A DNA stretch of 64,000 nucleotides, from the IMG/VR virus record IMGVR_UViG_3300005842_000485, positions 1 through 64,000 of that record. One strand, written 5' to 3'. The translations under genes and the position numbers were made by a program. Positions 1 through 19,216 of this stretch are shown piece after piece (the first letter of the stretch is position 1; each line of letters opens with the position of its first letter). Origin of the DNA: a virus. The notes below the pieces were generated by a model. It did not search any database and was not told where the DNA came from. It was given only the letters and a program-made list of their open reading frames with translations.

Positions 1-1278
1 GTGAAGCGAACCAACAAGCGGGGGGTGCGAGATCGCCTCCCAGGATTCAGCTACAACTCGGTCACCAAGGAAGCGCACTTCGACGTGTGGGGGCGGAAGG
101 CAGCAGGGCAGAAGCGGCACCGCATCAGCGTCCCGGCCGCAACGCAAGAGGAAGCGGTCACGCTCTGGAAGCAGTACCGGCAGAAGGTGAAAGGGGGAAG
201 CGACCGCACCTTGATGCTTCCGCCCACGTTCGAGGAGTTCATCAACGACAGCTTCGACACGATCTGCGCGCAACTGAAACCAAAGACCGCGCGCGAGTAC
301 CGGTACGTAGTCGGGGTTGAAGGGACACGTCGGCGTAAGAAGGCAGCGAGACGGCCAACGCTCCTCATGGTCTTCGGCGAGATGCGTCTCACCGAGATCA
401 CCTCCGGGAAGATCAACAAGTGGTCGGCAGGGCTGATCGCGCTCGGCTACGCCGGCGCCACGGTGAACAACTACGTGAACACAATGTGTTCGCTCATGAC
501 GTACGCGGTGGAACTGGACGCCATCGAGGAATCTCCGCTCAAAAAGGAAGTGAAGAAGTACCGGGCGAACAAACCGCAGAACGAGCTGTCGGATGCGGAG
601 GAAGCACGATTCCTCGCGGCCTTCGATGATGAACGCGGCTTCCGCGACTACATCGCGGCCACGATGCCGCGGGGCACCGTGCGTCTCATCCCCAAGGATC
701 GCGCGGACGCGAAGGTGTTCGGGACGAAGCGGGTCGTGGGCGCGGCACTCCACCCGGAGAGCTCGGCGACGGGCGCGTACTTCCGCCGATTCCAGTCCTT
801 CGGGAAGCCGTTCTTCATCGTGGCGCTCGAAACTGGGCTGCGGTGGATCACGGACTTGCTGCCGCTCCAGTGGGAAGCGAACATCGACGAGGCGGCGGGA
901 GTCATTCGCACGACGACCGGAAAGACCGGGCGCGATGTGGTGATCCCGATTTCCAAACGGTGTTGGGAGGCCCTCGCCCAGTGCAAGGCGCGGAGCAACG
1001 GCACGGGCAACGTGTTTGTCGACGACGATGGCTGCGTCCCGGCTATCAAGACGATCCGCCGCTACTTCGCTATCGCAAAGTGGATCGCCGGCATGCAGAA
1101 GCGGAAGTTCCGCATCCATGATGTACGGCACACGTTCGGGAGCAAGCTGCTTCGTAGAGGTGTGAACATCAAGTTCGTGAGCACCGTCATGGCGCATTCC
1201 TCGGTGCGGATGACGGAGCGCTACGCCCGTGCGGGGGACGCGGTGCTCGGTGCCGTGGTCGAGGCGTTGGATCAATGA
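1..1278 (+). CDS. int: Tyrosine recombinase / phage integrase
   Basis: This 425-residue protein is a tyrosine site-specific recombinase that would integrate or excise phage DNA. The catalytic set is visible in order: Arg281 in 'ETGLRWITDLLPLQW', His373 and Arg376 in 'HDVRHTFG', His399 in 'MAHSS', and the nucleophile Tyr408 in 'TERYAR'. The N-terminal half should hold the arm- and core-binding domains. The GTG start is the first base of the window, so an upstream extension cannot be excluded. It converges with the next gene on a strong shared terminator hairpin. No att core could be recognised. The family call is secure; that the phage is temperate is inference. Confidence 0.93.
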   Translation: MKRTNKRGVRDRLPGFSYNSVTKEAHFDVWGRKAAGQKRHRISVPAATQEEAVTLWKQYRQKVKGGSDRTLMLPPTFEEFINDSFDTICAQLKPKTAREYRYVVGVEGTRRRKKAARRPTLLMVFGEMRLTEITSGKINKWSAGLIALGYAGATVNNYVNTMCSLMTYAVELDAIEESPLKKEVKKYRANKPQNELSDAEEARFLAAFDDERGFRDYIAATMPRGTVRLIPKDRADAKVFGTKRVVGAALHPESSATGAYFRRFQSFGKPFFIVALETGLRWITDLLPLQWEANIDEAAGVIRTTTGKTGRDVVIPISKRCWEALAQCKARSNGTGNVFVDDDGCVPAIKTIRRYFAIAKWIAGMQKRKFRIHDVRHTFGSKLLRRGVNIKFVSTVMAHSSVRMTERYARAGDAVLGAVVEALDQ

Positions 1279-1281
1279 AGC

Positions 1282-1307
1282 GATGGGGCGGCGGATGCCG
1301 CCCCATC
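1282..1307. terminator. Bidirectional terminator hairpin
   Basis: A perfect 11-bp stem (GATGGGGCGGC / GCCGCCCCATC) with loop GGAT lies between the convergent integrase and the 1317-1949 gene, starting 3 bases after the integrase stop codon. It can end transcripts from both sides. Confidence 0.8.
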
Positions 1308-1316
1308 TTCGTGTCG

Positions 1317-1949
1317 TCATCGGCGATCGTCGCGTTCGAGCATCGGCAGATAGAGATGCTCCAGACAGAAGACGTGGAGATCCCACCGCGACGCGAATCC
1401 CGCCATCCGACCGGGAACCGCATGCGGTCCATGCTTGTCGAGCCAGGCGGCGGTGAACCTCCCGAGCGCCCGGATGTCTCGATGCGTCCCGAGCCGCTTC
1501 AGCGGGAGTTCATAGAGGCACGTCTCGGACGGCGGTACGAGCGCGAGCACGTGGTAATCCATCTCGTCATGGAGGAGAAAGACACCCGGACGCCTGCCTG
1601 TCGCAGCGATGGCGTTGGCGCGCCGTGGCACAAGCATCGGATAACCCCAGAGGACTTCATCGACAAGGTCATGCTCCAGGACATGCCTCGGGAGGAAGGG
1701 GTTCACACACTTCCGCAGATCGGCGCGGCCCCGCGCTTTGCGCCCGGCATGTTGCGACTCCACATACTCCCGCGAGGCAGAGAGCGTATCGCGGACGGCC
1801 GGGTGGGTAATCGCGTCGTCATCCAGCGGATTCACCCCCATCCGTGCGAGATCGTCAGCGAGTCGCAGCTGTTCCTCGAACGCGGTGTCGTGGGATGGCA
1901 GGCGATGGGTAACAGTCGTAGGTAGGGTGTAGCTCTTTACCTGATGCAT
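1317..1949 (-). CDS. Hypothetical protein
   Basis: A 210-residue protein I do not recognise. The minus frame is preferred over an overlapping plus-strand frame because its composition is protein-like (for example 'VFLLHDEMDYHVLALV') and it has a clear Shine-Dalgarno, AAAGGA, a few bases before the ATG at 1949. No signal peptide, membrane segment or catalytic motif is apparent. That SD lies inside an inverted repeat (1958-1996), so translation may be controlled by RNA structure. It is the last gene of the leftward early region and sits next to the integrase. Confidence 0.6.
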   Translation of the reverse strand: MHQVKSYTLPTTVTHRLPSHDTAFEEQLRLADDLARMGVNPLDDDAITHPAVRDTLSASREYVESQHAGRKARGRADLRKCVNPFLPRHVLEHDLVDEVLWGYPMLVPRRANAIAATGRRPGVFLLHDEMDYHVLALVPPSETCLYELPLKRLGTHRDIRALGRFTAAWLDKHGPHAVPGRMAGFASRWDLHVFCLEHLYLPMLERDDRR

Positions 1950-1957
1950 GGAGTCGA

Positions 1958-1996
1958 TTCCTTTCCAGGCCCGCGCTTCGCGCGAAGCATGGAAGG
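1958..1996 (-). promoter_or_regulatory. Inverted repeat overlapping the SD of the 1949 gene
   Basis: CCTTTCCA (1960-1967) can pair with TGGAAGG (1990-1996) with one bulge. Between them is a perfect 14-bp palindrome, GCTTCGCGCGAAGC (1975-1988). On the minus-strand transcript this folds the AAAGGA ribosome site of the downstream gene into a stem. It may be a translational control element or a protein-binding site; no function is proven. Confidence 0.4.
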
Positions 1997-2160
1997 GCCG
2001 AGCGGCGTGACAGTGGAGAGGAAGCCGTGGAACGGGCTATCTGTCTGATGGAGTTGCGCTTGCGCCGCGAGCGGGTGATGTTTGCCCTCTGCCGTGCCGG
2101 TATAGCAAGGGCTCCGTGTGTTGCGGCGCGAGCTGCGCGAATCTGTTGATGCGATTGAGG
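1997..2160. other. Short gap without a convincing gene
   Basis: Only low-complexity, Arg/Ser-rich shadow frames are open here on either strand. I see no convincing promoter. Confidence 0.4.
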
Positions 2161-2322
2161 TTACTGCCGCCTCGGAAACTTGCGGCTCTGCCCCGAGAGC
2201 GCGCGGATCGTCGCGAAGATCGTGCGGTGGGCGTCTGTGAAAAAGTCTTCGGTGTTGATGATGCCGACGACGCGATAGAACGCGTGATGGTCGAATGAGT
2301 ATCGTGCGTAACTAGACCCCAT
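2161..2322 (-). CDS. Small hypothetical protein (53 aa)
   Basis: A short frame starting ATG at 2322 and ending TAA at 2161. It is 8 bases downstream of the RNase H gene and reads as a normal protein ('FDHHAFYRVVGIINTEDFF'). A longer overlapping minus frame (2037-2330) is Ser/Arg rich and looks like a shadow. Function unknown. Its position suggests co-transcription with dnaB and RNase H. Confidence 0.5.
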   Translation of the reverse strand: MGSSYARYSFDHHAFYRVVGIINTEDFFTDAHRTIFATIRALSGQSRKFPRRQ

Positions 2323-2330
2323 ATGCCCAC

Positions 2331-2843
2331 TTAGCCGCGTTTGGGCGGCCTACTGCCGATTAATTGGCCGGCGAGAAGGTCAGCACGCCTGTTTTTCGAT
2401 CTGGGGACGTGTTCCGGGGTCAGGATGAGTCCTTGGCCGTCCGGAAGGAGTTGGACGCGTCTCCGTCCATCAGGGAGGCCCACAACGGCATGCGCGATGA
2501 AGCCAGCAATCTGCCGTTGGAGCGGTGCGATGTGCGGAAGCTGGGAAATCCGGTTCTGGCCTATCAGGAACTTGATGACGAACTGGGAGTCACCGCGAAG
2601 GAGCACGTGCCGGACACCGCGGCCAGACGCCCAGCGCAGCCCTTCGAGGCAGCCGTGCAGTTCCGCCATGTTGGAGCTACACGGCTCGACGGTTCCTGCG
2701 GCCTCCTTGAGCGTCTGACCGCCCTTCCCGACCGCGACGAACGCCCATGCGCCCTTCGTCTGTTGCCAGTTCGGATGGCTCGGCGCGCAGTTCGCGATGC
2801 AGGCACCATCAAAGTTGAGAATGAGGTCGTAGTCGTTCCTCAC
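2331..2843 (-). CDS. Ribonuclease H-like protein
   Basis: A 170-residue RNase HI-fold protein, expected to cleave the RNA strand of RNA-DNA hybrids such as replication primers. The acidic metal-binding set is in place: Asp12 ('NFDGA'), Glu61 ('NMAELHG'), Asp85 ('LRGDSQFVI') and Asp155 ('NRRADLL'), with His145 in 'EHVPRSKN' as the usual extra histidine. Its ATG overlaps the dnaB stop codon as ATGA, so translation is probably coupled to the helicase. Length fits a stand-alone RNase HI. Substrate specificity is inferred from the family. Confidence 0.85.
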   Translation of the reverse strand: MRNDYDLILNFDGACIANCAPSHPNWQQTKGAWAFVAVGKGGQTLKEAAGTVEPCSSNMAELHGCLEGLRWASGRGVRHVLLRGDSQFVIKFLIGQNRISQLPHIAPLQRQIAGFIAHAVVGLPDGRRRVQLLPDGQGLILTPEHVPRSKNRRADLLAGQLIGSRPPKRG

Positions 2844-4192
2844 GCGGTGAGCGGGAAGTGCTCATCCACGCCACCATGGAAGCTATCGAGGGAGCGGAAG
2901 GTGGTGGTCTTCGCGTCGAACATGAGGAGCACCTTCCCGGTCGGGCCGTTGCGGTGCTTCTTGATGTGCAGCTCCACCTCGCCGGGACGGTCGGACTCCT
3001 CCGGCCGGTAGTAGTCGTCGCGGTACAGCATCATCACCACATCGGCGTCCGCTTCGATCTGGCCGGACTCGCGGAGATCGGAGAGGTTCGGGACTTTGCT
3101 GTCGCGGCCCTCCACCGCACGGGACAACTGCGAGAGACAGAGGATCGGCACGGTCAGCTCGCGCGCAAGCGCCTTGAGGCTGCGGCTGATCTCGGAGACT
3201 TCCTGCGTCCGGTTGTTGGGATTCGTCCCTGCCATGAGTTGCAGGTAATCCACCACGATGAAGTCGAGACCATGTTCGGCCTGGAGCCGTCGTGCGCGGC
3301 TACGGAGTTCGAGGGCGGTGAGCCCAGCGGTGTCCACGATGTAGAGCGGCAGGTCTTTCCATTTGTCCATCGCCGCCGCGACCAGATCACCTTCGCTCGA
3401 CGTGAGCTTGCCGGCGCGAATCTTCCAGCCGTCCACCCCGGAGAGGCCGCTCAAGATGCGATTGGTCAGCTGCTCCTTCGACATCTCGAGCGAGAAGATG
3501 CCGACGTTCTTTCCCTTCGACGCGATGTTCTTCGCGATGGTCAGCGCGCAACTCGTCTTTCCCATTGCAGGCCGGGCGGCCAAGATGAGGAGATCGGACG
3601 GCTCGATGCCCGAGAGCATGCGATCCAGCTCCCCCAACCCGGTGTAGATGAAGCGGGACTTCGCCTCGCCTTCCATCGCCGCCGCCATGCGCTCGTACTG
3701 CGCGTCGAAGAGGTCACGGAGCGAGTCGATCTTGGTTCGCGCATGCGAGCGCCGGATGTCCGTCAGCAGCTGTTCGGATCGGTCGCGGACGATCTGCGGT
3801 TCTGCCTCAAGATCGAAGGCAAGCCGCTGGATCTCGTACCCCGCCTCGATGATGCGCCGCCTCGTCGCGTGGTCGTGCACGATCCGCGCGTACTCCTCGG
3901 CGTTGGACGCGGTGGGAACAAACTCGGTGAGCGCGGCGAGTTCCGCGATGCCACCGGCAAGTGTAAGTTCATCACGCTCGATGAGGCGCGCTTGGAGCGT
4001 CGTGAGATCGATGGGGCGCCGGGCGCGGTACAGGTCGAGCATCGCGGCGTACGTGATCCGGTGCGCGTCGAAGTAGAAGTCGTCCTTTGCGAGAAGTTCC
4101 GAGACGCGAATGATCGCTTCCTGATCGAGCAGGATTGATCCGAGGACACTCTTCTCGGCCGTAACGTCATGCGGTGGCACCTTCGACTGCAT
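2840..4192 (-). CDS. dnaB: Replicative DNA helicase (DnaB-like)
   Basis: A 450-residue hexameric replicative helicase of the RecA-like superfamily 4. The N-terminal primase-interacting domain begins 'HDVTAEKSVLGSILLDQEA'. The C-terminal motor has Walker A 'ARPAMGKTS' and Walker B 'LDFIVVDYLQLM', followed by the conserved 'LSQLSR' and 'LRESGQIEADADVV' stretches. The ATG at 4192 is chosen because the family normally starts just before 'PHD'. An ATG at 4243 would add 17 Ser/His-rich residues and overlap the initiator gene further. The start lies 26 bases inside the upstream initiator gene and the stop overlaps RNase H, so this is a tight replication operon. Confidence 0.95.
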   Translation of the reverse strand: MQSKVPPHDVTAEKSVLGSILLDQEAIIRVSELLAKDDFYFDAHRITYAAMLDLYRARRPIDLTTLQARLIERDELTLAGGIAELAALTEFVPTASNAEEYARIVHDHATRRRIIEAGYEIQRLAFDLEAEPQIVRDRSEQLLTDIRRSHARTKIDSLRDLFDAQYERMAAAMEGEAKSRFIYTGLGELDRMLSGIEPSDLLILAARPAMGKTSCALTIAKNIASKGKNVGIFSLEMSKEQLTNRILSGLSGVDGWKIRAGKLTSSEGDLVAAAMDKWKDLPLYIVDTAGLTALELRSRARRLQAEHGLDFIVVDYLQLMAGTNPNNRTQEVSEISRSLKALARELTVPILCLSQLSRAVEGRDSKVPNLSDLRESGQIEADADVVMMLYRDDYYRPEESDRPGEVELHIKKHRNGPTGKVLLMFDAKTTTFRSLDSFHGGVDEHFPLTA

Positions 4193-5240
4193 GGGGTTGT
4201 TCGGGAGGTGATGAGACGAGGAGGACGGCGCGGACGAAACCACGGATCAACGTGACCTGTTCGCGCTTTGGAGGGGACGGGGATGCGTCGAGCCGGGAAA
4301 ACGGAGCGGGATCGACGCCGAAGCGAGGAGCGACGGAGCGAATGCGTTCCCACGCATGCGTGGCACCGAAGGAAAGATCGCTCTCAAGCTGCCGGTAGAG
4401 GGTCTGTTTCTCGAAGAATGCGGCTTCGGGGTCGCGCCGCTGACGTGCTGCCTTTTGGCGATCTTCCTTCGAGGGAGGGCCAGTCCATGTGTAGCCCTGT
4501 GCCTTCTGCGACGTGAGCGTCGTCGAGAGCCATGAGAACAGGGACTTGCGCTCGACAAACGAAGTTGCGGCGACCTGAAGGGCCTTGAGGAGTTGTATTT
4601 CGCTGTGCTCGCGAACGTACGACTCGACGAGCTCAAGGATTTCTTGGTTCCAGAAGAACGGCCCGAGATGCGACGCGAGGGCCTTCTCAAGCTGGGGAGA
4701 CGCAACGTACGTCCCCTCTGGCTCGCGCGCGTCATCATCATCGTTCTTTCGTTCTTGTTCTTCTGTTCTTTCCTTATTAGGACTTTCGCTATACAAGAGT
4801 TCCACTGGCTGAATGGAGCTTGTAGATGCGGATGACTGGCTTGTATAAGCAGAGGGCATGGATTCTTGGTGGTCGTCGGAACCAGTAGGACTTTCGCTAG
4901 TCGAAAGTGCCAATGGGCCTTTTGCGATTTCAAAGGTGCGTTGGGAGAAAACGCCCGTCGTTTCGCGGCCAACGGCGGAGACGGTAACCAAGCCGAGTGT
5001 CGAGAGTATCTCCAGCGCACGGGCGACACCCTTGTAGGACATCCCGGTGAGTTGGCAGATGGTTGAGACGTGCTCCTTGAAAATCTTGTCCCCGTAATCG
5101 TTACAGAGGAGGACAAGCACATCGTAGACGGCCATGACGTAGGCAATCTGTCGGCGCGGGACGGACGCTGCGATCAGCCTCACGCGCGCCTTGTCCTTCC
5201 AGTGCCACGCAATGCCTTGGGTTCCCTTCACACCACGCAT
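4167..5240 (-). CDS. Putative replication initiator with winged-helix N-terminus
   Basis: A 357-residue protein directly upstream of dnaB. Residues ~15-110 look like a winged-helix DNA-binding domain ('VSTICQLTGMSYKGVARAL', 'LGLVTVS'), typical of phage O-like or DnaD-like initiators that load the helicase. A Ser/Thr/acid-rich linker follows (~125-175), then a helical C-terminal part with 'FFWNQEILELVESYVREH'. I infer origin binding or helicase loading from fold and position; no exact family is claimed. The ATG sits inside a 9-bp-stem hairpin and has no SD, only a CA-rich leader. Transcription probably starts at the TTGACC/TAGTGT promoter about 110 bases upstream. Confidence 0.7.
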   Translation of the reverse strand: MRGVKGTQGIAWHWKDKARVRLIAASVPRRQIAYVMAVYDVLVLLCNDYGDKIFKEHVSTICQLTGMSYKGVARALEILSTLGLVTVSAVGRETTGVFSQRTFEIAKGPLALSTSESPTGSDDHQESMPSAYTSQSSASTSSIQPVELLYSESPNKERTEEQERKNDDDDAREPEGTYVASPQLEKALASHLGPFFWNQEILELVESYVREHSEIQLLKALQVAATSFVERKSLFSWLSTTLTSQKAQGYTWTGPPSKEDRQKAARQRRDPEAAFFEKQTLYRQLESDLSFGATHAWERIRSVAPRFGVDPAPFSRLDASPSPPKREQVTLIRGFVRAVLLVSSPPEQPHAVEGATA

Positions 5241-5275
5241 GGCTGCGTGGTGTTGTTGTTCAGATGGCTGTTCAT
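5228..5275 (-). CDS. Possible 15-codon leader peptide overlapping the initiator start
   Basis: An ATG at 5275 opens a 15-residue frame that ends in TGA at 5228, 13 bases inside the initiator gene whose ATG is at 5240. Such an overlap could couple or regulate initiator translation. There is no SD. The evidence is only geometry, so confidence is low. Confidence 0.25.
   Translation of the reverse strand: MNSHLNNNTTQPCVV
5231..5252 (-). promoter_or_regulatory. Hairpin covering the initiator start codon
   Basis: CACCACGCA (5231-5239) and TGCGTGGTG (5244-5252) form a perfect 9-bp stem with loop TGGC. The start codon (5240-5238) lies at the loop and stem edge. In RNA it would block initiation; in DNA it is a good operator for a dimeric repressor. 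Confidence 0.55.
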
Positions 5276-5353
5276 GCAGGCGTGATCGTTACGGATGATC
5301 CGCACCTGTGCAAAGGGAAATGCATCGGTCGCAAGGATGAGTGTTCAGCTTTC

Positions 5354-5381
5354 ACACTACTCCTCCAGAAAATCGGGTCAA
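5354..5381 (-). promoter_or_regulatory. Promoter of the replication operon (TTGACC / TAGTGT)
   Basis: On the minus strand TTGACC (5381-5376), a 16-base spacer and TAGTGT (5359-5354) match the promoter element found before most leftward operons of this genome. Predicted transcription start is near 5347, about 107 bases before the initiator ATG. Confidence 0.6.
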
Positions 5382-5384
5382 GCC

Positions 5385-5412
5385 TTGACGCAGCAATGGC
5401 TTCCTGTAGGAT
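5385..5412 (+). promoter_or_regulatory. Rightward sigma70-like promoter
   Basis: TTGACG (5385-5390), 16-base spacer, TAGGAT (5407-5412). Its -35 box is 3 bases from the -35 box of the leftward promoter, and the junction is a perfect inverted repeat, GTCAAG-C-CTTGAC. No protein gene follows; the transcript would meet a hairpin after about 30-50 bases. Confidence 0.55.
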
Positions 5413-5417
5413 GAAAG

Positions 5418-5475
5418 TGCTCGGTCTCGCAAGGATTAGCACGGCGTCCCCGCTTCGGCGGGGATTGCTGTCTTA
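5418..5475 (+). ncRNA. Candidate small RNA from the divergent promoter
   Basis: The predicted transcript from the rightward promoter is about 55 bases long. It contains stem GTGCT/AGCAC (5417-5421 with 5438-5442) and then TCCCCGC-TTCG-GCGGGGA (5447-5464), a 7-bp stem closed by a TTCG tetraloop, followed by TTGCTGTCTT. No reading frame of note. This is inferred from promoter and terminator alone. Confidence 0.35.
5447..5464 (-). terminator. TTCG-tetraloop terminator hairpin
   Basis: Perfect 7-bp stem TCCCCGC/GCGGGGA with TTCG loop, 8 bases after the stop codon of the 5473-5700 gene on the minus strand. It separates the SSB operon from the replication operon and could also end the rightward small transcript. 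Confidence 0.65.
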
Positions 5476-5700
5476 GGAGTCTTTTGGATCGTGCGGCTTC
5501 TTGCAACACGGGCAGATGGGCGGTTCTTCTTTGGCCCGTGGCCACGGGACTTCCGCAATAATGAGTTCAATCGTCTTGAGACGGATATGGCGTTCGTCGT
5601 CGTAGCGATAGCGGACGCAGACCAAGCGGTCGCCAAACTTCTCCATGAGCCGCCGCGTGCCGGCGCGCGGTGGACGGACGGTGAGTCTGGTGCGAAGCAC
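5473..5700 (-). CDS. Small conserved-type protein with CPCC motif
   Basis: 75 residues. The N-terminus is basic ('RLTVRPPRAGTRRLMEKFG') and is followed by a beta-strand-like core 'DRLVCVRYRYD'. The C-terminal CPCC plus a His is a likely metal site. The pattern resembles a small uncharacterised protein I recall from proteobacterial and phage genomes, but I cannot name a family. It starts 1 base after the preceding gene and is the last gene before the tetraloop terminator. Confidence 0.65.
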   Translation of the reverse strand: MLRTRLTVRPPRAGTRRLMEKFGDRLVCVRYRYDDERHIRLKTIELIIAEVPWPRAKEEPPICPCCKKPHDPKDS

Positions 5701-5701
5701 G

Positions 5702-5926
5702 CTAGACCTCGCTCATGATCTGGCGGAAGACGGTTGTGCTGATGCGCATGACCGCGCACACGACCGAGACTAAGCGGCGTTGTGTGAGGTCGTCGGTGCT
5801 GCGGATCATTGCGGCTGCGGCGCGGAGGCGCTGTTGTCGGTTCTCGTCTCGGGCGAGCGCAAGTTCCGGCGCGAGCGCAAGCATGAGTGCGGCGATCTCT
5901 TGGGCAGCGGTATTCGGTTGTGCCAT
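5702..5926 (-). CDS. Small helical hypothetical protein
   Basis: 74 residues from the ATG at 5926 ('MAQPNTAAQEIAALMLALA'). An upstream ATG at 5983 would add a Pro/Arg-rich segment unlikely to be translated. It looks all-helical, with a possible helix-turn-helix-like stretch near the C-terminus ('DDLTQRRLVSVVCAVMRIS'). Function unknown. It abuts the 5473-5700 gene. Confidence 0.55.
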   Translation of the reverse strand: MAQPNTAAQEIAALMLALAPELALARDENRQQRLRAAAAMIRSTDDLTQRRLVSVVCAVMRISTTVFRQIMSEV

Positions 5927-6005
5927 GCCACGAGTCTGCACTCTGGCTACAGGGGAGAGAGGTGGTGCGCGGTGGACTTCCACATCTCCCGCGCACCGTT
6001 GGTGT

Positions 6006-6308
6006 TTACCACATGAGGATCAGGAGCATCGCGAGGATCGGCCAGCCGAGAAGCGCGATAAAGGCCGTATTGCGCCAGAGACGCATGGCTTTGAGGTCAC
6101 GCTGGCTTCGGCGCAGCGTGTCCGATGCACCGTCCGCCATGCTGCGAACCTCGAAGAAGTGACAGCTTGGGGTGCGGCACAATGCCACTTGGAGCGATTT
6201 CGCCCCGTCTACACCGGTGAGGACGGAGAGCCAGTTCCGTTCGTCTTTGCAGCGCGCGCAGCGCGTGTTCAGTCGAAGTTCCGAGAACTGTCCTGCAAGG
6301 TGCGTCAT
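6006..6308 (-). CDS. Small membrane-anchored protein with zinc-ribbon-like N-terminus
   Basis: 100 residues from the ATG at 6308, which overlaps the stop of the upstream gene as ATGA. The N-terminal half has CARC and a later Cys-Cys-His cluster ('CRTPSCHFFEV'), consistent with a small zinc ribbon. The C-terminus is a hydrophobic segment ('TAFIALLGWPILAMLLILMW') that should anchor it in the membrane. Unknown role. Longer frames upstream are Arg-rich shadow sequence. Confidence 0.6.
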   Translation of the reverse strand: MTHLAGQFSELRLNTRCARCKDERNWLSVLTGVDGAKSLQVALCRTPSCHFFEVRSMADGASDTLRRSQRDLKAMRLWRNTAFIALLGWPILAMLLILMW

Positions 6309-6610
6309 GCCGGTACGTAGGTCAGGAGCAGGGCGATCTCGGCGCGGATGCGTGGATCGAGATGTTCCATCGGGAGCACGTCGTAGCCGCCAAGGAGGTT
6401 GAACTGCGGCGTCTCGTCGTCTCCGAAGAAGAGCGTCGTTCCCATCTCGCCCCAATCGTCGATCTGTTCGATGTCTTTCGCGACACCGAGCGGCGCGCCA
6501 GTCGTGGCGTCGAGCACGGCATGTGTCCATCCATGGAGATGCATGGGAGTGGTGGTGAAAGATTCAAAGAACGCGGTGGGTGTTCGCCCCGTGCGTGGTG
6601 AGTCGTGCAT
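6305..6610 (-). CDS. Hypothetical protein (101 aa)
   Basis: 101 residues from the ATG at 6610 with an alternative ATG at 6544. 'HLHGWTHAVLDATTGAP' and the acidic, compact remainder look like a genuine globular protein. In the same frame upstream of the ATG a Cys-rich stretch ('CGATLAP', 'CLACRR') remains open without a canonical start codon, so the true protein may be longer. Function unknown. The stop overlaps the next gene. Confidence 0.5.
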   Translation of the reverse strand: MHDSPRTGRTPTAFFESFTTTPMHLHGWTHAVLDATTGAPLGVAKDIEQIDDWGEMGTTLFFGDDETPQFNLLGGYDVLPMEHLDPRIRAEIALLLTYVPA

Positions 6611-6807
6611 GCGCCGGCAAGCCAGGCAGCCATGCTGTGGAAGTCCACTCGCCGGAGCGAGCGTGGCACCGCAGACCGAGCGCGCATCGAAGGCCGTCGA
6701 AGTGACGAGAAAGAGCGCCCTCTCGCACGATGGCGCGTGGGGGTAGGCTATCGCCCTAGGAAGGCGGCACGGACACTACGGGACTCGACCCACGGAAACG
6801 TAGAAGG

Positions 6808-6834
6808 CCCCCGGCGCGGGGTCAGCTCCGGGGG
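6808..6834. terminator. GC-rich hairpin in the 6611-6990 gap
   Basis: CCCCCGG (6808-6814) and CCGGGGG (6828-6834) pair perfectly around a 13-base loop. The surrounding gap of 380 bases between the SSB gene and the 6305 gene holds no other convincing gene. Confidence 0.4.
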
Positions 6835-6927
6835 TTACGGCAGGAACTCCTCTCTAAACCCCAGAGGAACGAAACACCAGCGTGTGCTGGCGGCTGCGGA
6901 ACGGTGTCTACCCCCGAGCTTCAGCGA

Positions 6928-6965
6928 AGAAGCGCCTGATCTCCAACAACTGGAGGGGCGCTTCT
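6928..6965 (-). terminator. Hairpin downstream of SSB
   Basis: Long interrupted stem AGAAGCGCC...CTCCA / TGGAG...GGCGCTTCT, starting 25 bases after the SSB stop codon on the minus strand. The U-tract is poor. It is probably a terminator or attenuator of the SSB transcript. Confidence 0.55.
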
Positions 6966-6990
6966 CGTGACCGGGACGCAGCAACAGGAG

Positions 6991-7365
6991 TTACACGGCT
7001 TGTTCTTCTTCGTCGGGCGCGGGTGAGGCGTCCGGCTTATCGAGGAATTGAATCTGGCTGGCCGAGACCTGGAGCACCTTGAGCTTCGGCCCCTTCGTCT
7101 GCTTCTTCTCGTACTGGGCGAGCGACCCCGAGACGAGCACGGCGCTCCCCTTGGCGAGATGGTTCACGACGGCGGTGGCGAGGTCGCCCCAACAGACGAC
7201 ATCGGCGAACGTGGTGAACGGTGTTCTGCCTTTGGCGTAGCGATTCGAGGCGACGGTGAGTGCGGCGCCAGGTCTGCCACCATCGGCGGTAAGCGGGTGC
7301 GGGTCGGCGACAAGGCGACCTGCGATCAGCACCTGATTGATGTACGGCATCTTCAACTCGGACAT
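6991..7365 (-). CDS. ssb: Single-stranded DNA-binding protein
   Basis: 124-residue OB-fold SSB that coats single-stranded DNA in replication. It starts 'MPYINQVLIAGRLVADP' after a five-residue extension and continues through 'FTTFADVVCWGDLATAV', 'KGSAVLVSGSL' and 'KVLQVSASQIQFLD', all typical SSB strands. The usual DDDIPF-like tail is replaced by 'DEEEQAV', acidic but without the terminal Pro-Phe, so contacts with host partners may differ. Start ATG at 7365 (alternative 7350). The leader is G-rich, then CCCC. It is the first gene of a leftward operon with a TTGACC-type promoter about 70 bases upstream. Confidence 0.92.
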   Translation of the reverse strand: MSELKMPYINQVLIAGRLVADPHPLTADGGRPGAALTVASNRYAKGRTPFTTFADVVCWGDLATAVVNHLAKGSAVLVSGSLAQYEKKQTKGPKLKVLQVSASQIQFLDKPDASPAPDEEEQAV

Positions 7366-7436
7366 GGGGCATGTCCCCCTCTCTTCTATTGGGTTGCTGC
7401 TGGATGGACTGCGAAAGGGCTGCGGCGGTCGTCTTA

Positions 7437-7466
7437 TGCGTACGGGCGCAGCGGGTGAGGGGTCAA
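7437..7466 (-). promoter_or_regulatory. SSB operon promoter (TTGACC-N17-GTACGCA)
   Basis: Minus strand TTGACC (7466-7461), 17 bases, then GTACGCA (7443-7437). It fits the genome-wide leftward promoter element, with a weaker downstream box. Confidence 0.5.
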
Positions 7467-7472
7467 TGCGGG

Positions 7473-7502
7473 TTGCCGGCAGCGTTTTGTAGACGCTATG
7501 GT
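7473..7502 (+). promoter_or_regulatory. Possible rightward promoter
   Basis: TTGCCG (7473-7478), 18-base spacer, TATGGT (7497-7502), 25 bases before the ATG at 7527. It lies back-to-back with the SSB promoter. Moderate match only. Confidence 0.35.
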
Positions 7503-7526
7503 GAGAAACGATTCACTGATACCACT

Positions 7527-7685
7527 ATGGAAGCAGTCTTCGGCCTCATCGTTGTCATCGGTCTCATTGCGCTGATCGTGTGGGGCTACCGCCGCATGCT
7601 CGACGTGGATAACCGGATCGCTCGTGGAGATCGAACGTTCATTTCAGACATCCTGAAAGCGATCACCGGAAAGGACAAGCAGTAA
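7527..7685 (+). CDS. Small membrane protein (52 aa)
   Basis: One N-terminal transmembrane helix ('VFGLIVVIGLIALIVWGY') followed by a charged 30-residue tail. First gene of the rightward small-protein cluster, divergent from SSB. Unknown function. The ATG at 7527 is chosen because it opens directly on the membrane segment. Confidence 0.6.
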   Translation: MEAVFGLIVVIGLIALIVWGYRRMLDVDNRIARGDRTFISDILKAITGKDKQ

Positions 7686-7811
7686 GAGGAGCGTGTCAAG
7701 AGGGTAGTGGGCAGAATCTTTGTTCAAGAGATGATGCGTAGGTATTGGCATATGGATGCGCCAATACGCGCGCTCTGTTGGCGTATTACGGACAAGGACT
7801 AGACACGAGCG

Positions 7812-7840
7812 TTGAAACGGCGCGGAATCAGGCGTACAGT
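7812..7840 (+). promoter_or_regulatory. Promoter with operator-like repeat
   Basis: TTGAAA (7812-7817), 17-base spacer, TACAGT (7835-7840). The inverted repeat ACAGT-AGA-ACTGT overlaps the -10 box, and GTATTGGC/GCCAATAC (8-bp arms) lies upstream near 7741-7768. The 285-base gap 7686-7970 holds no other gene. This is probably the regulated promoter of the small membrane-protein cluster. Confidence 0.5.
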
Positions 7841-7970
7841 AGAACTGTCCACAAACAGGAAGTTCGTTTACAACGCAGGCCCGGTGCCTCGCCCCTCCGC
7901 ACGATGTTCTGGCTAAGGCGGCGTGTGGGTTCGCAGGCACGAGCACCTCTCAATTCTTCACACTGGTTCT

Positions 7971-8210
7971 ATGGATAATCTCCACATCGTGACGTTCGAG
8001 CGCTTAGCACTCGGCTCGCGGATAGAAATGCCGCTCCTTGAAGGCCAGGTGGCATATCTCCAACAATGGCCTTCCCGGTACGTCGTACTCGAGCCGCACC
8101 CGACGTTCAAGCGGACGCAGATCGCGTTCAGCACGGACGACGAGGCAGAGATCGACGCCATCATGCGGCGGCATAGCGGCGAAGAGAAACGCGCGTACCG
8201 CATCCTCTAA
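7971..8210 (+). CDS. Hypothetical protein (79 aa)
   Basis: Soluble-looking 79-residue protein starting ATG at 7971 ('MDNLHIVTFERLALG') and ending with a charged helix ('DDEAEIDAIMRRHSGEEKR'). A longer frame from 7923 would add unlikely sequence. The leader is CU-rich without SD. Unknown function. Confidence 0.6.
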   Translation: MDNLHIVTFERLALGSRIEMPLLEGQVAYLQQWPSRYVVLEPHPTFKRTQIAFSTDDEAEIDAIMRRHSGEEKRAYRIL

Positions 8211-8221
8211 CACCAACTTCC

Positions 8222-8410
8222 ATGCTGACCGAAGCAGTTGTCGTCGCCGTTGGAATGATCGTGCTCGGCGGTCTCTCGATCTCCGCCACGCTCGCTGCGT
8301 TCGTACAGCGCGACTACACGAACGTTGTCATCGGTATCTTCGCGTCCCTGCTGTTCTTCGCGGTGGCGGGGATCAGCGCAGCGGTCGCATCCAGCCTGTT
8401 CCTCTCGTAA
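8222..8410 (+). CDS. Small two-helix membrane protein (62 aa)
   Basis: Two hydrophobic segments (about residues 4-25 and 36-60) linked by 'FVQRDYTNVV', so a hairpin membrane protein. Leader 'TAACACCAACTTCC' directly before ATG, with no SD, shared in style with neighbours at 9212 and 9665. Function unknown. Confidence 0.65.
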   Translation: MLTEAVVVAVGMIVLGGLSISATLAAFVQRDYTNVVIGIFASLLFFAVAGISAAVASSLFLS

Positions 8411-8414
8411 CCCC

Positions 8415-8744
8415 ATGACGCTTCCCGGAATCATCCTCGTCGTGCTCGGCTGCGTATGGGCGGCGGCGGTACTCGTTGCGCGGGACAAGGTTATTGCGCT
8501 CGCGCTCACCGGGTTCTTCGGAGTCTTGGGACTTGTCGCAGGAACGGCGCTCGTCCATCTCCATCCGGTCGTGCGGGTGGAACGGGTGAACGCCGTTGTC
8601 GTTCCTTCTCCGTCCGTCGATCTCGCGCCGGCCGGGTTCCAGCACGAAACCGAGATGCCACGGTTGACGGGTCTCGAACCACCGGCCAACACGGGAGTGA
8701 CCCTTCAAGTGAACGTCATGCGGAGTTCCACGGCACTCATATGA
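8415..8744 (+). CDS. Membrane protein (109 aa)
   Basis: Two N-terminal transmembrane helices ('ILVVLGCVWAAAVLVA', 'LALTGFFGVLGLVAGTALV') and a ~60-residue hydrophilic C-terminal region. Starts 4 bases after the previous stop; its own stop overlaps the next ATG as ATGA. Unknown function. Confidence 0.65.
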   Translation: MTLPGIILVVLGCVWAAAVLVARDKVIALALTGFFGVLGLVAGTALVHLHPVVRVERVNAVVVPSPSVDLAPAGFQHETEMPRLTGLEPPANTGVTLQVNVMRSSTALI

Positions 8745-8959
8745 AGCAACCCAAGCGGCGGAAAGAGCCGAAGCAATGGAAGCAATGGAAACGTGGCGAG
8801 ACGTGCAACGGCGCGCATCCTTGTCCGTCACCCGATTACCCCAACCATCACGCGGCGCTCTGCATCTGTTCGCTCGAAGAACTGGGAGTCCATGACATCG
8901 ACCAGTGCACGCTCTGTCACGCCATCGTGTGCAAGGGGTGTAAGAACACCATCCTGTAA
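8741..8959 (+). CDS. Cys/His-rich small protein
   Basis: 72 residues. Lysine/tryptophan-rich N-terminus ('KRRKEPKQWKQWKRGE'), then eight cysteines including CIC, 'CTLCHAIVCKGC' and several His residues. It is probably a small zinc-binding protein, possibly interacting with nucleic acid through its basic start. ATGA overlap with the upstream membrane-protein gene implies coupled translation. Confidence 0.65.
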   Translation: MKQPKRRKEPKQWKQWKRGETCNGAHPCPSPDYPNHHAALCICSLEELGVHDIDQCTLCHAIVCKGCKNTIL

Positions 8960-8970
8960 TCAGCAGCCGA

Positions 8971-9195
8971 ATGCGACTCGCATCCATCGCAGCCAAAGTG
9001 CTGCTCGTCATCTCCGTGCTCCTCTACGGAGTCGGTCTTCCGAAGATCGGCTTCGCGTTCATCGTGGCAACCTGCGCCGCCATCTTCACCTGGCGCGTTC
9101 TGGAGCTGCGGAGCGAGCGCGCCGCCGAACGCCGGGTCGTGCAGCGCATCAAACGATTGAACGATGCCCGCGAGGTCGCGGAGATTCTCTCTTAA
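8971..9195 (+). CDS. Small membrane protein (74 aa)
   Basis: Two closely spaced hydrophobic segments ('KVLLVISVLLYGVGL', 'FAFIVATCAAIFTW') and a strongly charged C-terminal helix ('RSERAAERRVVQRIKRL'). Probably an inner-membrane protein with a cytoplasmic basic tail. Unknown function. Confidence 0.65.
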   Translation: MRLASIAAKVLLVISVLLYGVGLPKIGFAFIVATCAAIFTWRVLELRSERAAERRVVQRIKRLNDAREVAEILS

Positions 9196-9211
9196 GTAAC
9201 ATCAACTTCAC

Positions 9212-9517
9212 ATGCAGTTCCTTGGATATTTGTTCTCGGTATGGGTCGGCGTCCTCCTTGCGTGGGCGACGCTGGGGGCCGTGGCCTTCGTCGGGGCGAT
9301 GGTGCTCGCGAGACGACTTGCCATGCGTCTTCTTTGGATAGGCGTGACAGCCCTCTACGGTATCGTCAGCATCCTCAATTTTCGATCGTGGTTCATCAAC
9401 CTGCGTACAGAGGCATTTGTAACGACGGTCGTGGTGTGGGTCGTATTGTTTATCGCCTGCGTCGCCGACGTCCTCTACTCCGCGATCGCGCAGCAGGATA
9501 CGAGTAACGCCGGCTGA
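9212..9517 (+). CDS. Membrane protein with three to four helices (101 aa)
   Basis: Hydrophobic segments at roughly residues 4-30, 38-60 and 68-90. Leader AACATCAACTTCAC before ATG, no SD. Its small polytopic form resembles holins, accessory exclusion proteins or other phage membrane modulators, but nothing specific identifies it. Confidence 0.65.
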   Translation: MQFLGYLFSVWVGVLLAWATLGAVAFVGAMVLARRLAMRLLWIGVTALYGIVSILNFRSWFINLRTEAFVTTVVVWVVLFIACVADVLYSAIAQQDTSNAG

Positions 9518-9518
9518 C

Positions 9519-9653
9519 ATGAAACACAACAAAGCGTCGGCGTACGTGGTGATCGCAGTCGCGCTCTTTGGCCTGCTCTATATGGTCGCGAACCTGAGGA
9601 GCTTCGATGTCGGTACGCAAGATCACCCGCACGTCATCTCCCTTCGTCCCTAA
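9519..9653 (+). CDS. Membrane microprotein (44 aa)
   Basis: ATG at 9519 follows the previous stop by one base. The product has a short charged start ('MKHNK'), one transmembrane helix ('YVVIAVALFGLLYMV') and a polar tail. Single-span microprotein of unknown function. Confidence 0.55.
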   Translation: MKHNKASAYVVIAVALFGLLYMVANLRSFDVGTQDHPHVISLRP

Positions 9654-9664
9654 CATCAACATCC

Positions 9665-9823
9665 ATGAAGTTCATCACCCTTCTCCTCGTGATCGTAGCG
9701 GTCGCGTATCTGGCATATACCAAAGGCGTTGAGCGCGGGTTCGGCGTTGGCGCTGATGCCATGTACCAGGAACTCGGCGCGGTCGGCTGCGGACACGGAG
9801 GCGGCGGTGGTACTTCTTGGTAA
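9665..9823 (+). CDS. Small membrane or secreted protein with Gly-rich tail (52 aa)
   Basis: N-terminal hydrophobic segment ('FITLLLVIVAVAYLAY') that could be an anchor or uncleaved signal. The C-terminus is 'CGHGGGGGTSW'. Leader TAACATCAACATCC before the ATG, no SD. Unknown function. Confidence 0.55.
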   Translation: MKFITLLLVIVAVAYLAYTKGVERGFGVGADAMYQELGAVGCGHGGGGGTSW

Positions 9824-9835
9824 CAGACAAGACTT

Positions 9836-10225
9836 ATGAAAGCTCACAACGAGACGCCGGAGGGCGGCGTCGTGGTCTATGTTCCCCAGCGGCACGTCCT
9901 CACATGGAAGACAGGCATGGTTGCCGCGCTCATTCTCCTTCTCTTCGCTGGCGCGTTCCTCGCGGTGCGGTTGTACAACGATCCGCTCAACGTCGCGACC
10001 CGCGAAGAGGCAGTCGTCCTGCGGAAGATCAACGAGAAGAAGCTCACAATTGAGCAGAACGAGCAGCGGCTCAAGCAGGCAGAAAGCGAACTCGCCGCGC
10101 TGCAATCGGAGCGCGCGGAGATCGAGAAACGCAAGATCGAGGCGGCGAATCGGGGCGTGAAAGACACGCGCCCGATCAAGATTGATCCGGCCATCACCGA
10201 GGCTTTTCAGTCGGCGGGGAAGTAG
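9836..10225 (+). CDS. Single-span membrane protein with coiled coil
   Basis: 129 residues. About 27 hydrophilic residues, one transmembrane helix (~28-46, 'MVAALILLLFAGAFLAV'), then a long charged heptad-rich helix ('KINEKKLTIEQNEQRLKQAE') of ~60 residues. This layout suits an inner-membrane protein projecting a coiled coil, as in inner-membrane spanins, and the next gene is a CHAP amidase. The spanin idea is only an analogy. Confidence 0.65.
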   Translation: MKAHNETPEGGVVVYVPQRHVLTWKTGMVAALILLLFAGAFLAVRLYNDPLNVATREEAVVLRKINEKKLTIEQNEQRLKQAESELAALQSERAEIEKRKIEAANRGVKDTRPIKIDPAITEAFQSAGK

Positions 10226-10254
10226 CACTCGCCGCTTCCCGTAAGCCCTACGAC

Positions 10255-10680
10255 GTGGAGCGCGTTGACGACTGGCGCGCGGACGAAGTGCCGGCGACCA
10301 CCAGCAACACCAGCGGTCCTGACTATCCCGAAGGGGAATGCACGTGGTTTGCTGCAAAGTTCGTTCGCGAGCAGACGGGTTTCGCGGGGTTCTACTTCCC
10401 GCGGTTGGCTGGCGAGCCTCCGCGCCACGCGAAGACATGGCCGCAACTCGCGAAGGGCGCAGGTGTCCACTCCGGTTCCGATCCTCAAGTAAATGCGGTC
10501 GCCGTCTTCACGACGGGCGTGTTCTCCACCTGGGGGCACGTCGCGGTCGTCACCGCGGTCCACCAGGACGGCACGTTCGACATCATCGAGTCGAACTATC
10601 CAAAGCATCACACGGTCACGCGCGAATCGAACATTTCGCCGGCATCCGTCACCACATTCCTCTACCCACCATCGGCATGA
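10255..10680 (+). CDS. CHAP-domain peptidoglycan amidase/endopeptidase
   Basis: 141 residues forming a single CHAP domain, a papain-like fold that cleaves peptide bonds in peptidoglycan. The catalytic Cys29 is in 'GECTWFAAKF', His95 in 'WGHVAVV', and the third polar residue in 'DIIESNYPK'. There is no cell-wall-binding domain and no signal peptide. The GTG at 10255 is the only ATG, GTG or TTG in the open part of the frame, which continues upstream to 10186. It may be a second lysin or a virion-associated enzyme. The stop overlaps the next ATG. Confidence 0.85.
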   Translation: MERVDDWRADEVPATTSNTSGPDYPEGECTWFAAKFVREQTGFAGFYFPRLAGEPPRHAKTWPQLAKGAGVHSGSDPQVNAVAVFTTGVFSTWGHVAVVTAVHQDGTFDIIESNYPKHHTVTRESNISPASVTTFLYPPSA

Positions 10681-10898
10681 CACCTTTCACACGTTCAAGC
10701 AGGAAGGCGAAGCTCCTCGAGCTGCTCCGAGATCGGCGCTACCACAGCGCACGGGAACTGCTCAAAGCGGGAGGCTACCGGTACGGAGCACGGCTCAACG
10801 AATTGCGCGGGTTCGGTTATGGCTTCTCGGTGAAGCGGGATGCGGAGAAGATGAACTTGTTCTGGTATCGGCTCGCCAGCAAACCTGCGGCCGTATGA
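10677..10898 (+). CDS. Small basic winged-helix-like protein
   Basis: 73 residues rich in Arg/Lys. 'KLLELLRDRRYHSARELLK' followed by 'RLNELRGFGYGFSVKR' looks like a helix-turn-helix plus wing, as in small excisionase- or MarR-like DNA-binding domains. Overlaps both neighbours by ATGA. Regulatory role inferred, not shown. Confidence 0.55.
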   Translation: MTPFTRSSRKAKLLELLRDRRYHSARELLKAGGYRYGARLNELRGFGYGFSVKRDAEKMNLFWYRLASKPAAV

Positions 10899-11113
10899 AG
10901 CGGCGTCACTTTCCGAAGTGTCCGACCTGTAACGGCATGGTCGGCATCGGCGCAGGGCGATTCAGGCGGGACATGCGGGGCGCGACGATCTGGAACGAGT
11001 GCCCGAACTGTGGGCCGGTTGATACGGTGGATGTCGGGAGGCCCCCGAAGGCCGGTGCGCTCGCGTGGCTGCGGGCGAGGCTTCGTACATACGCTTCCTG
11101 CCTCTCTCTATGA
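10895..11113 (+). CDS. Zinc-ribbon protein (72 aa)
   Basis: Two CxxC knuckles (CPTC near residue 9, CPNC near residue 36) define a zinc ribbon, followed by a basic C-terminal helix ('GALAWLRARLRTYA'). Likely nucleic-acid or protein binding. ATGA overlap at both ends. Confidence 0.65.
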   Translation: MKRRHFPKCPTCNGMVGIGAGRFRRDMRGATIWNECPNCGPVDTVDVGRPPKAGALAWLRARLRTYASCLSL

Positions 11114-11682
11114 CCACCAGCGATCCATGCTGTGATGCATGTGGCGGACAGATCACGGGACGCGGCGTCTTGCATGATGGAATGGTGCTATGCAGCGACG
11201 TATGCAGCACTTTTGTTGCGCGCGGCTACACGACCGCGAGCGCACAGAAGATCATCGGGAAGAAACTGGTGGCGCACGGGACAAGCAAGCGGCGTTTCCG
11301 GTTCACACTTGAACAAGAGCGGGCAATCTGTGATGCGTATTCGAGCGACGCGGCGGTGACGATGCCGCAGATTGCGCGGAAGTGGAACACCAGCCGACAA
11401 ATCATCCGGGGCGTGCTCCAAAGGAACCGAGTTGCGATCCGCCGCTGGTGCATACGGCCACCTGTGCAGAAGGTACGTGTGGCTTTCGCGCATGCGAGTC
11501 CCGTACGACTCGCAGTCCAAGACGCCGTGGGTGCGCCGGGAGATAGCGCAGCTGTGACGCCGGATCGCGCCGAACCGTACGAGCCGTTCCCGGCGCTTGA
11601 ACCCGGACGCTGTGTGGGCTGCGGCGTAGCACTCGAACCAACCCAGCGCGTCTGCGACGCATGCGATGTCGCCGGCCTCTAG
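11110..11682 (+). CDS. Zinc-finger / helix-turn-helix protein
   Basis: 190 residues. N-terminal Cys cluster ('CCDACGG', later 'CSDVC'), a central helix-turn-helix ('MPQIARKWNTSRQIIRGVL', ~85-105) similar to a resolvase or homeodomain-like fold, and a C-terminal ribbon ('CVGCGVA', 'CDACDV'). Probably a DNA-binding regulator. The ATG at 11110 overlaps the previous stop; 11065 is a less likely start. Confidence 0.6.
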   Translation: MTTSDPCCDACGGQITGRGVLHDGMVLCSDVCSTFVARGYTTASAQKIIGKKLVAHGTSKRRFRFTLEQERAICDAYSSDAAVTMPQIARKWNTSRQIIRGVLQRNRVAIRRWCIRPPVQKVRVAFAHASPVRLAVQDAVGAPGDSAAVTPDRAEPYEPFPALEPGRCVGCGVALEPTQRVCDACDVAGL

Positions 11683-11876
11683 CCGTCCGGTCACTCCATG
11701 TATGACGACGAGGGCGCGATGAAGCCGCAACCTGCGCCGGAGTTGTAGCGCGCCTGCTGCTGAACTTGCCAAATGTAGTGGCATGAGCCGGCTTGTCACT
11801 GGTTCGTAATAGGTATGCCTCTCGGGTTACCAAAAGTGATGTGGTGCACGATTGCCGTTGGATCGACACTGGTGGC

Positions 11877-12992
11877 ATGGGTGCAGACATCTCTAGCTAC
11901 GTCACCGTGCTTACCGATTCGACAAACGCGGTTAGTGCCATGATCGCGTCGCTTGTGACACTCTTCGGGGTGCTACGGTTCAGACGTCGGGCACGGGCGG
12001 AAATCGCGCCCGCCGCTGTTGTGCGAGGAAGCGCTGGCGGCGGCCTCGCGACGTTGCTCTACGTGAGCAATGCAGTTCCGCACGACATGATGGCGAACCC
12101 CGGATCGCCATCCGGGACGATCTATGCGCCCCAAGGAACAGTAACGAAGCTCCCGCGGTGGGCCACGAGTACGTTCACCCCGCTCGCGATTATCGTGGTG
12201 CTCCTCTTTGCCCTCTTCGATATGCAGCGCACATCGCATGTTGAACGCGTACCCGTTCACATCGCGCCGGTCATCACTGATGCACGTGCGTTTATCTCCG
12301 AGTACGACCCGGCCGGCACCGTCGTCTCTGGCGGGCGTGACTACATCGTGATCCGGGTGAACGGGACGTGGGATGGGACGCTGGCAACACTCTCCTCCAT
12401 TCCCGCGACGCCCAGCGAGCGCTCGGACTTCACGTGGGTATCCAATCTCAAGGAGTTGTGCGGAACCGGCTGCAACGCCAACGATGCCTTGTTCGGTTCG
12501 GAGTCTCCGGCTAATCTCGTGGCCGCGCGTCTCAAGCTGCGTACGGGCGGTGTCTCTACTGACTCCATCGCCCACGTTGGGGGCGACACTACGCCGGGGG
12601 CTGACTGCATGGTCTTCGTGTATGCGCTCGGCCTCGGTGATGACGTCCACAACACGGGCCCGTGGACCAAGATCGGCGAGGGGCGGCTCGACCCGTCCGG
12701 CTCGTGGTCTGTCGTGGGCACCGTTTCAAGTGATCGGTCACGTACCGTTACGAGCGGGAGTACCGCCAAGATCTCGCTGGCCGCGATCGTGGTGTCTCCG
12801 AAAGATGCGTCGGACGGAAAGACGCCGGAGGCCAAGAACACGATGTCATTGGCCGATCTCGGCGCGATGGGACGCTCGGAGATCGTCACGGTAGTGCCTC
12901 ATCGCGGACTTCAACGGGGACAGGTGACGGACGACACGGTTGGAGGTCAGTCACGCACTACGCCGGCGACAGGAGTATCTCGACGGCGCTGA
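11877..12992 (+). CDS. Large hypothetical membrane protein
   Basis: 371 residues from the ATG at 11877 (11793 possible). A hydrophobic segment near the N-terminus ('AVSAMIASLVTLFGVL') and a second around residue 105 ('LAIIVVLLFALFD') flank a ~60-residue loop. The remaining ~250 residues are polar with Gly/Thr-rich beta-type sequence and two Cys ('LCGTGC'), probably outside the cytoplasm. No family recognised. A strong terminator follows. Confidence 0.55.
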   Translation: MGADISSYVTVLTDSTNAVSAMIASLVTLFGVLRFRRRARAEIAPAAVVRGSAGGGLATLLYVSNAVPHDMMANPGSPSGTIYAPQGTVTKLPRWATSTFTPLAIIVVLLFALFDMQRTSHVERVPVHIAPVITDARAFISEYDPAGTVVSGGRDYIVIRVNGTWDGTLATLSSIPATPSERSDFTWVSNLKELCGTGCNANDALFGSESPANLVAARLKLRTGGVSTDSIAHVGGDTTPGADCMVFVYALGLGDDVHNTGPWTKIGEGRLDPSGSWSVVGTVSSDRSRTVTSGSTAKISLAAIVVSPKDASDGKTPEAKNTMSLADLGAMGRSEIVTVVPHRGLQRGQVTDDTVGGQSRTTPATGVSRRR

Positions 12993-13019
12993 AGACTACG
13001 TGCACACAAACTTTTGTAG

Positions 13020-14272: not shown

Positions 14273-14286
14273 AACCTACAAAGCAG

Positions 14287-19201: not shown

Positions 19202-19216
19202 ACAATGAACCCAAGG

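Follow-up and report, generated by a model that had tools for sequence, protein, structure and literature searches.

Why should a promoter with no gene of its own stand back to back with the promoter of a phage replication operon? The locus belongs to an uncultured bacterial virus, and the window analysed here is a 64-kb (64,000-nucleotide) stretch of a 90,565-base (90.6-kb) metagenomic virus record that encodes a tyrosine integrase, terminase, portal, methylases and an HTH_3 repressor. An earlier note had described two divergent promoters at the replication genes, joined by an inverted repeat, with a short gene-less candidate RNA downstream of the rightward one that may act in trans or be a by-product of a symmetric operator. 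Every gene in the neighbourhood of the pair runs leftward. The 75-amino-acid (aa) ORF is separated from rep by a 232-bp intergenic gap, beyond which lie rep, dnaB and RNase H. The following features define the setting:

6991-7365, leftward: SSB, upstream of the intergenic gap and followed by small ORFs
5473-5700, minus strand: 75-aa ORF, the last small ORF before the gap, with its stop codon right next to where the candidate RNA would end
5230-5253, minus strand: perfect 10-bp hairpin holding the rep start codon (AUG 5240-5238; -18.2 kcal/mol)
4167-5240, minus strand: rep, a replication initiation/DnaD-like protein of 357 aa (PHROG 270 "replication initiation," E 6.6e-5; PHROG 186, E 0.004)
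4735-4944, no strand: probable replication origin inside rep, from the AT-richest 200 bp and three direct repeats
2840-4243, minus strand: dnaB, a DnaB-like replicative helicase (Pfam DnaB_C, E 1.5e-97)

The AT-richest 200 bp of the window begins at 4735 (GC 0.455), and direct repeats with the core TAGGACTTTCGCTA are found at 4778 and 4886, together with a weaker third copy. A lambda-type origin would be expected at this place inside rep; this is the probable origin, and transcription from the leftward promoter would cross it. No clear Shine-Dalgarno sequence was found for the rep start codon. Because the AUG lies within a perfect 10-bp hairpin, translation of rep is probably weak and controlled in any case. 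The rep leader also holds the palindrome CGGAT-G-ATCCG (CGGATGATCCG) at 5292-5302, a possible operator and the sole exact copy in 90.6 kb.

Several other features of the record were observed. The 75-aa ORF belongs to an unnamed family with a CVRYRYDD core, members of which occur in MAGs labelled Thermoflexus, Acidobacteria, Deltaproteobacteria, Ozemobacter and Melioribacteraceae (loci L016-L022); further phage or plasmid carriers of this ORF were not found. In the right part of the phage, a replication-relaxation protein (Pfam PF13814) adjoins a putative AAA ATPase (L030:4584-7312), an arrangement associated with plasmids and conjugative elements. The HTH_3 repressor-like gene lies at the end of the record (L030:10158-10565; record positions 90158-90565) and would, in a circular genome, neighbour the integrase at position 1. 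A tRNA-like gene at 19131-19201 has an unclear anticodon (ARAGORN "tRNA-???") and scores 49.6 bits with the Rfam tRNA model.

Scanning of the gap placed all the elements named in the earlier note where it had located them:

5354-5381, minus strand: leftward promoter TTGACC-N16-TAGTGT, from pattern scans, expected start about 5346
5385-5412, plus strand: rightward promoter TTGACG-N16-TAGGAT, from the promoter scan and a pattern scan, expected start about 5419
5377-5389, no strand: inverted repeat GTCAAG-C-CTTGAC, two back-to-back -35 boxes
5349-5417, no strand: imperfect dyad centred on 5383 over both promoters, with GTAGNNTGAAAG at each -10, from repeat and pattern searches

Both promoters appear sigma-70-like, as judged by their match to the consensus, which was computed directly, and from its position the leftward one would head rep-dnaB-RNase H. 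The rightward promoter was the sole promoter-scan match between 4500 and 6500 (0.3 expected) and one of three in positions 1-20000. The pattern TTGAC-N16..19-TANNNT was found at eight sites in the window versus 1.8 expected; among these eight, only the leftward and rightward promoters of the pair carry TAGNNTGAAAG at the same register. Exact matches to TTGAC-N17-TAGNNT were confined to these two sites in 90.6 kb, and in both the -10 box is followed by TGAAAG. When the 232-bp region was shuffled 20,000 times with dinucleotides preserved, promoter sites never arose on both strands at once. The promoter pair is not expected by chance.

The inverted repeat said to join the promoters was recovered, and it is simply the two TTGAC -35 boxes set back to back; it has one exact copy in 64 kb, with degenerate copies at or below chance frequency. 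Across the whole pair, 18 of 34 positions of the dyad are symmetric, a score equalled in 13% of shuffles and so within chance. The suggestion of a genetic switch, drawn from this mirror symmetry, was dropped. The -35 boxes are 3 bp apart, and from the established sizes of promoter footprints only one polymerase should occupy the pair at a time. At bidirectional promoters of Escherichia coli, competition is seen when one side is substantially activated and not at basal activity (PMC12825309).

What would the rightward promoter transcribe? As the earlier note had stated, it lacks a gene: no ORF can be read from its start, no frame begins inside the candidate RNA, and the ATG of a 21-codon frame falls in the -10 box. 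Downstream of it, two hairpins were computed directly on the plus strand, making a short gene-less RNA a serious candidate:

5419-5476, possibly to about 5487, plus strand: candidate small RNA of about 55-58 nucleotides (nt), from the promoter and two hairpins
5417-5442, plus strand: hairpin 1, loop CGCAA exposed (fold -9.6 kcal/mol, z -2.8, p 0.014)
5441-5471, plus strand: hairpin 2, cUUCGg tetraloop, terminator-like (fold -22.1 kcal/mol, z -4.6)

The candidate RNA folds at -27.9 kcal/mol, and closely similar segments gave z scores of -2.9 to -3.7. The arms of hairpin 1 are the GTGCT (5417-5421) and AGCAC (5438-5442) noted previously; because the first two bases of GTGCT lie at or upstream of the expected start, the basal stem in the transcript is probably 3 bp. 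Hairpin 2 consists of TCCCCGC-TTCG-GCGGGGA (5447-5464) closed by ACGGC/GCTGT (5441-5445/5467-5471). Its description as a terminator held for the strong hairpin and less well for the tail: the U-tract (TTGCTGTCTTAGGAGTCTTTT) is weak, and the element fell below the threshold of the terminator scan and went unreported. The tail score on the plus strand is in the top 7% of random positions, and that on the minus strand is unremarkable. Rfam yielded no family near its gathering score for the region of the candidate RNA; hits to isrB, RsmY and a snoRNA (E 0.16-0.66) were far below gathering scores and were dismissed.

A BLAST search with hairpin 2 matched hundreds of unrelated phages and plasmids. 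In four unrelated genomes, which were all those inspected outside mycobacteria, the hairpin lies 10-22 nt past a stop codon with the gene on the UUCG strand, which suggests that loop orientation marks the terminated strand. At this locus the UUCG loop is on the plus strand, where no gene ends; the one neighbouring gene end, a few bases off, belongs to the minus strand. This arrangement supports a real rightward transcript. The orientation of hairpin 2 thus suggests, and is the best independent hint of, rightward transcription, despite the poor U-tract and the nearby gene end on the other strand. We consider it likely that a short rightward transcript exists.

The earlier note had held that the RNA is not antisense to the initiator gene, and indeed the two do not overlap. 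Its proposal of action in trans acquired a concrete basis from a direct repeat that it had overlooked:

5413-5439, plus strand: right copy of the gapped direct repeat GAAAGTGC-TCGGTCTCGCAAGGATTAG, the pairing region of the small RNA
5317-5341, minus strand: left copy, spanning about nt 6-30 of the rep leader and proposed as the target

The cores found by the repeat search are TCGCAAGGATGAG at 5329 and TCGCAAGGATTAG at 5427, and the extended gapped repeat has 23 matches, 1 mismatch and 4 gap positions. Exact matches to TCGCAAGGATNAG in 90.6 kb lie only on the two flanks of the promoter pair, nearly equidistant from the dyad centre. By its sequence, hairpin 1 is a diverged copy of the rep leader. 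As the copies are direct and not inverted, the rightward and leftward RNAs would be complementary to each other. Direct orientation is what antisense pairing requires; mirror symmetry of the promoters would yield inverted copies.

Cofolding predicted that nt 1-21 of the RNA (GCUCGGUC.UC.GCAAGGAU.U.AG) pair with nt ~7-27 of the leader, by about 18 pairs and with a ddG of -15.7 kcal/mol, so that the RNA could engage the first ~26 nt of rep mRNA (nt ~6-26 for hairpin 1). None of 318 random window targets reached this value (mean -4.6, SD 3.1), and 3 of 400 shuffled RNAs did. The RNA-to-leader alignment score was equalled in 64 of 20,000 shuffles, and the extended repeat, in either orientation, in 8 of 20,000. 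When the same geometry was slid along the real genome, 2-15% of positions, according to the gap cost chosen, equalled the leader-by-RNA score, the strictest of the controls; a narrow 47 x 48-nt comparison, chosen after the repeat had been seen, gave 13 of 12,651 genome positions (0.1%). The complementarity, computed directly, is therefore suggestive for a target named in advance (p ~0.003-0.04) and weaker at the most lenient gap cost. A raw RNAduplex ranking with the whole RNA was discarded because hairpin 2 dominated the scores, and a YUNR-type loop motif was left unused because of its high chance frequency. In the predicted folds the first ~13 nt of the rep leader are unpaired and the CGCAA loop of the RNA is open. 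The pairing site lies ~80 nt upstream of the rep start codon, and cofolding leaves the start-codon hairpin unchanged; a direct block of translation is therefore not predicted.

These observations can be combined in a model. The leftward promoter would drive the rep-dnaB-RNase H mRNA through the probable origin within rep, and the rightward promoter would drive a short two-hairpin RNA that stops at the putative UUCG terminator, next to where the preceding gene ends; polymerase at one promoter would exclude it from the other. The CGCAA loop of hairpin 1 may then contact the single-stranded 5' end of the rep leader, from which pairing in trans could grow to ~18 bp. Such pairing might form a duplex for RNase III or compete with a long-range helix predicted to join the leader to early rep codons, and the paired rep mRNA would be cleaved or otherwise shut off, lowering rep expression. 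By analogy with OOP and c4 (PMC5869508, PMC12197685), the effect on rep would most likely be negative. We tentatively favor the view that the small RNA is an OOP/c4-like candidate antisense brake on the initiator, acting on rep by pairing in trans, and we hold it with less than even confidence. On the unlikely side stands the fuller idea of a displaced antisense, in which an RNA controlling the initiator would come from a divergent promoter outside its target gene, would recognise the leader through a diverged direct repeat beside both starts, and would be set in ratio to the mRNA by promoter exclusion.

The main rival account of the rightward promoter is that it fires from promoter symmetry, or because a weak divergent promoter carries no cost, and that its RNA has no function, the terminator stopping the transcript at once, preventing an antisense run into the upstream operon and perhaps ending the leftward operon too. 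The stop codon of the leftward 75-aa ORF is 2-9 nt from hairpin 2, where a terminator would normally be placed, and other long hairpins of the record likewise lack U-tracts. Divergent transcription is described as common at bacterial promoters in the part of PMC12825309 that cites Warman 2021. As in the bidirectional promoters of that study, symmetric DNA would drive transcription both ways here and the polymerases would be mutually exclusive; however, those promoters share a single -10 element with starts 10-23 bp apart (PMC12825309), whereas this locus has two complete promoters set -35 to -35 with starts ~73 bp apart. The UUCG loop also sits on the plus strand, and the complementarity to rep through a direct repeat would have to be coincidence. 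We regard this account as doubtful, with a substantial chance of being correct.

The RNA sequence might instead be constrained as DNA and not as RNA, with copies of TCGCAAGGATKAG and/or the GTAGNNTGAAAG half-sites at the -10 boxes binding a phage regulator of both promoters. The TCGCAAGGATKAG copies flank the dyad centre at similar distances (44-56 and 42-54 bp), TGAAAG is repeated at both -10 boxes, the rep leader holds a second palindrome, CGGATGATCCG, and an HTH_3 repressor is encoded at the far end of the record. However, two direct copies 98 bp apart with indels would make an unusual operator, and there are no further repeat copies in 90.6 kb, the vicinity of the repressor gene included. 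An operator is in our view improbable.

Lambda OOP RNA (pO-oop-to) offers a further comparison. It too is a short gene-less RNA with a hairpin terminator, placed in the gap between a small gene and the initiator and directed against both, and the lambda origin lies inside the initiator gene, as it probably does here. Judged by sequence alone, an OOP-type layout is present: the candidate RNA runs opposite to the initiator, just upstream of it, and has no ORF. It might thus act in cis, by overlapping the 3' end of the 75-aa ORF mRNA or solely through promoter competition or transcription at the origin, the layout of lambda oop being matched down to the placement of start and end (PMC5869508). 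Lambda OOP, however, covers 52 bases of cII, where it works together with RNase III (PMC5869508), whereas the RNA here, ending at about 5471-5487 against an ORF end at 5473, has no substantial overlap with the preceding gene (about 3-14 nt, <= ~14 nt at most), and its complementarity is to the initiator's own leader through the repeat. No homology to lambdoid oop sequences was found in GenBank phages. Action in cis of this kind seems to us quite improbable. Expression of the open 21-codon plus-strand frame as a micro-peptide (MKVLGLARISTASPLRRGLLS, 5411-5473) can be set aside as having almost no chance of being right, as its ATG within the -10 box and an in-frame GTG at or before the start site are not expected in the transcript, it has no Shine-Dalgarno sequence or homologue, and the 43 database matches to its DNA are unrelated.

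The candidate antisense brake can be set beside other RNAs that act by pairing. The P1/P7 c4 antisense RNA recognises a nearby target by short complementary loop segments and not by full overlap (PMC12197685). Here too a small phage RNA would hold a short complementary segment in a loop; however, c4 targets the ribosome binding site region of ant, whereas pairing is proposed here at the very start of the rep leader, ~80 nt away from the initiation codon, with an RNA that lies on the opposite strand and owes its complementarity to a direct repeat. P4 CI RNA is grouped with c4 as a loop-recognising small phage RNA. Plasmid copy-control antisense RNAs are transcribed from the strand opposite to their target and match it along their whole length. 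RNAII of pMV158 (PMC4485353), RNAI of ColE1 and CopA of R1 resemble the candidate in being short stem-loop RNAs near the rep promoter with complementarity to rep mRNA. In contrast, the candidate is not encoded in that way: it has no overlap with the leftward transcript, expected to start at about 5346, and it would form only ~18 pairs, with bulges.

Mycobacterial plasmids (pRAW and others, including those of M. intracellulare, M. abscessus and M. paragordonae) were observed to carry a conserved two-hairpin element upstream of leftward WhiB-like/larger or replication-side genes (L087:1470-1540, L092:571-640 and L093-L096). Three of its pairs are changed on both sides (compensatory), it has no Rfam family, and it may be a non-coding RNA that is not yet catalogued, perhaps one for antisense copy control. 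As in the RNA described here, its first hairpin is succeeded by one with a UUCG loop, which matches that of the window at 26/28 positions, and the element lies opposite to a leftward gene. Its covariance model gave the window 35.5 bits, versus 21.6-27.5 for unrelated UUCG terminators and 85-87 for members. Hairpin 1 of the window, however, has no sequence match to it and forms two non-standard pairs under its model, and the flanks are unrelated; on these sequence comparisons we do not claim homology.

No homologues of the rightward RNA were found in IMG/VR, GenBank phages, plasmids or about 1,000 genomes, and this weighs against the antisense brake. Queries across all eight IMG/VR scans used three DNA patterns together with rep, DnaB, terminase and, as both sequence and profile, the 75-aa ORF. 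The only relatives recovered were distant DnaB proteins, none accompanied by a homologue of rep, the 75-aa ORF or the rightward RNA. The 43 exact IMG/VR matches of CGGTCTCGCAAGGAT were unrelated, as were 12 matches to the back-to-back promoter pattern; none of the 43 had the promoter at the proper spacing or the repeat a second time. One of the 12 pattern matches (L077) seemed similar but proved to sit among clustered terminators in an unrelated phage that lacks a DnaB relative. The absence of rep from about 1,000 genomes of three phyla, a search without a positive control, carries little weight.

To our knowledge, few phages beyond those of E. coli and its relatives have had the RNA control of their replication worked out. 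If the rightward RNA is a by-product, then nothing here goes beyond an ordinary divergent promoter and its terminator. If the pairing is true, the phage would have a compact initiator brake in which one promoter pair yields both a message and its antagonist in competition, and a direct repeat flanking divergent promoters before rep would be a searchable signature of such control in uncultured phages and phage-plasmids.
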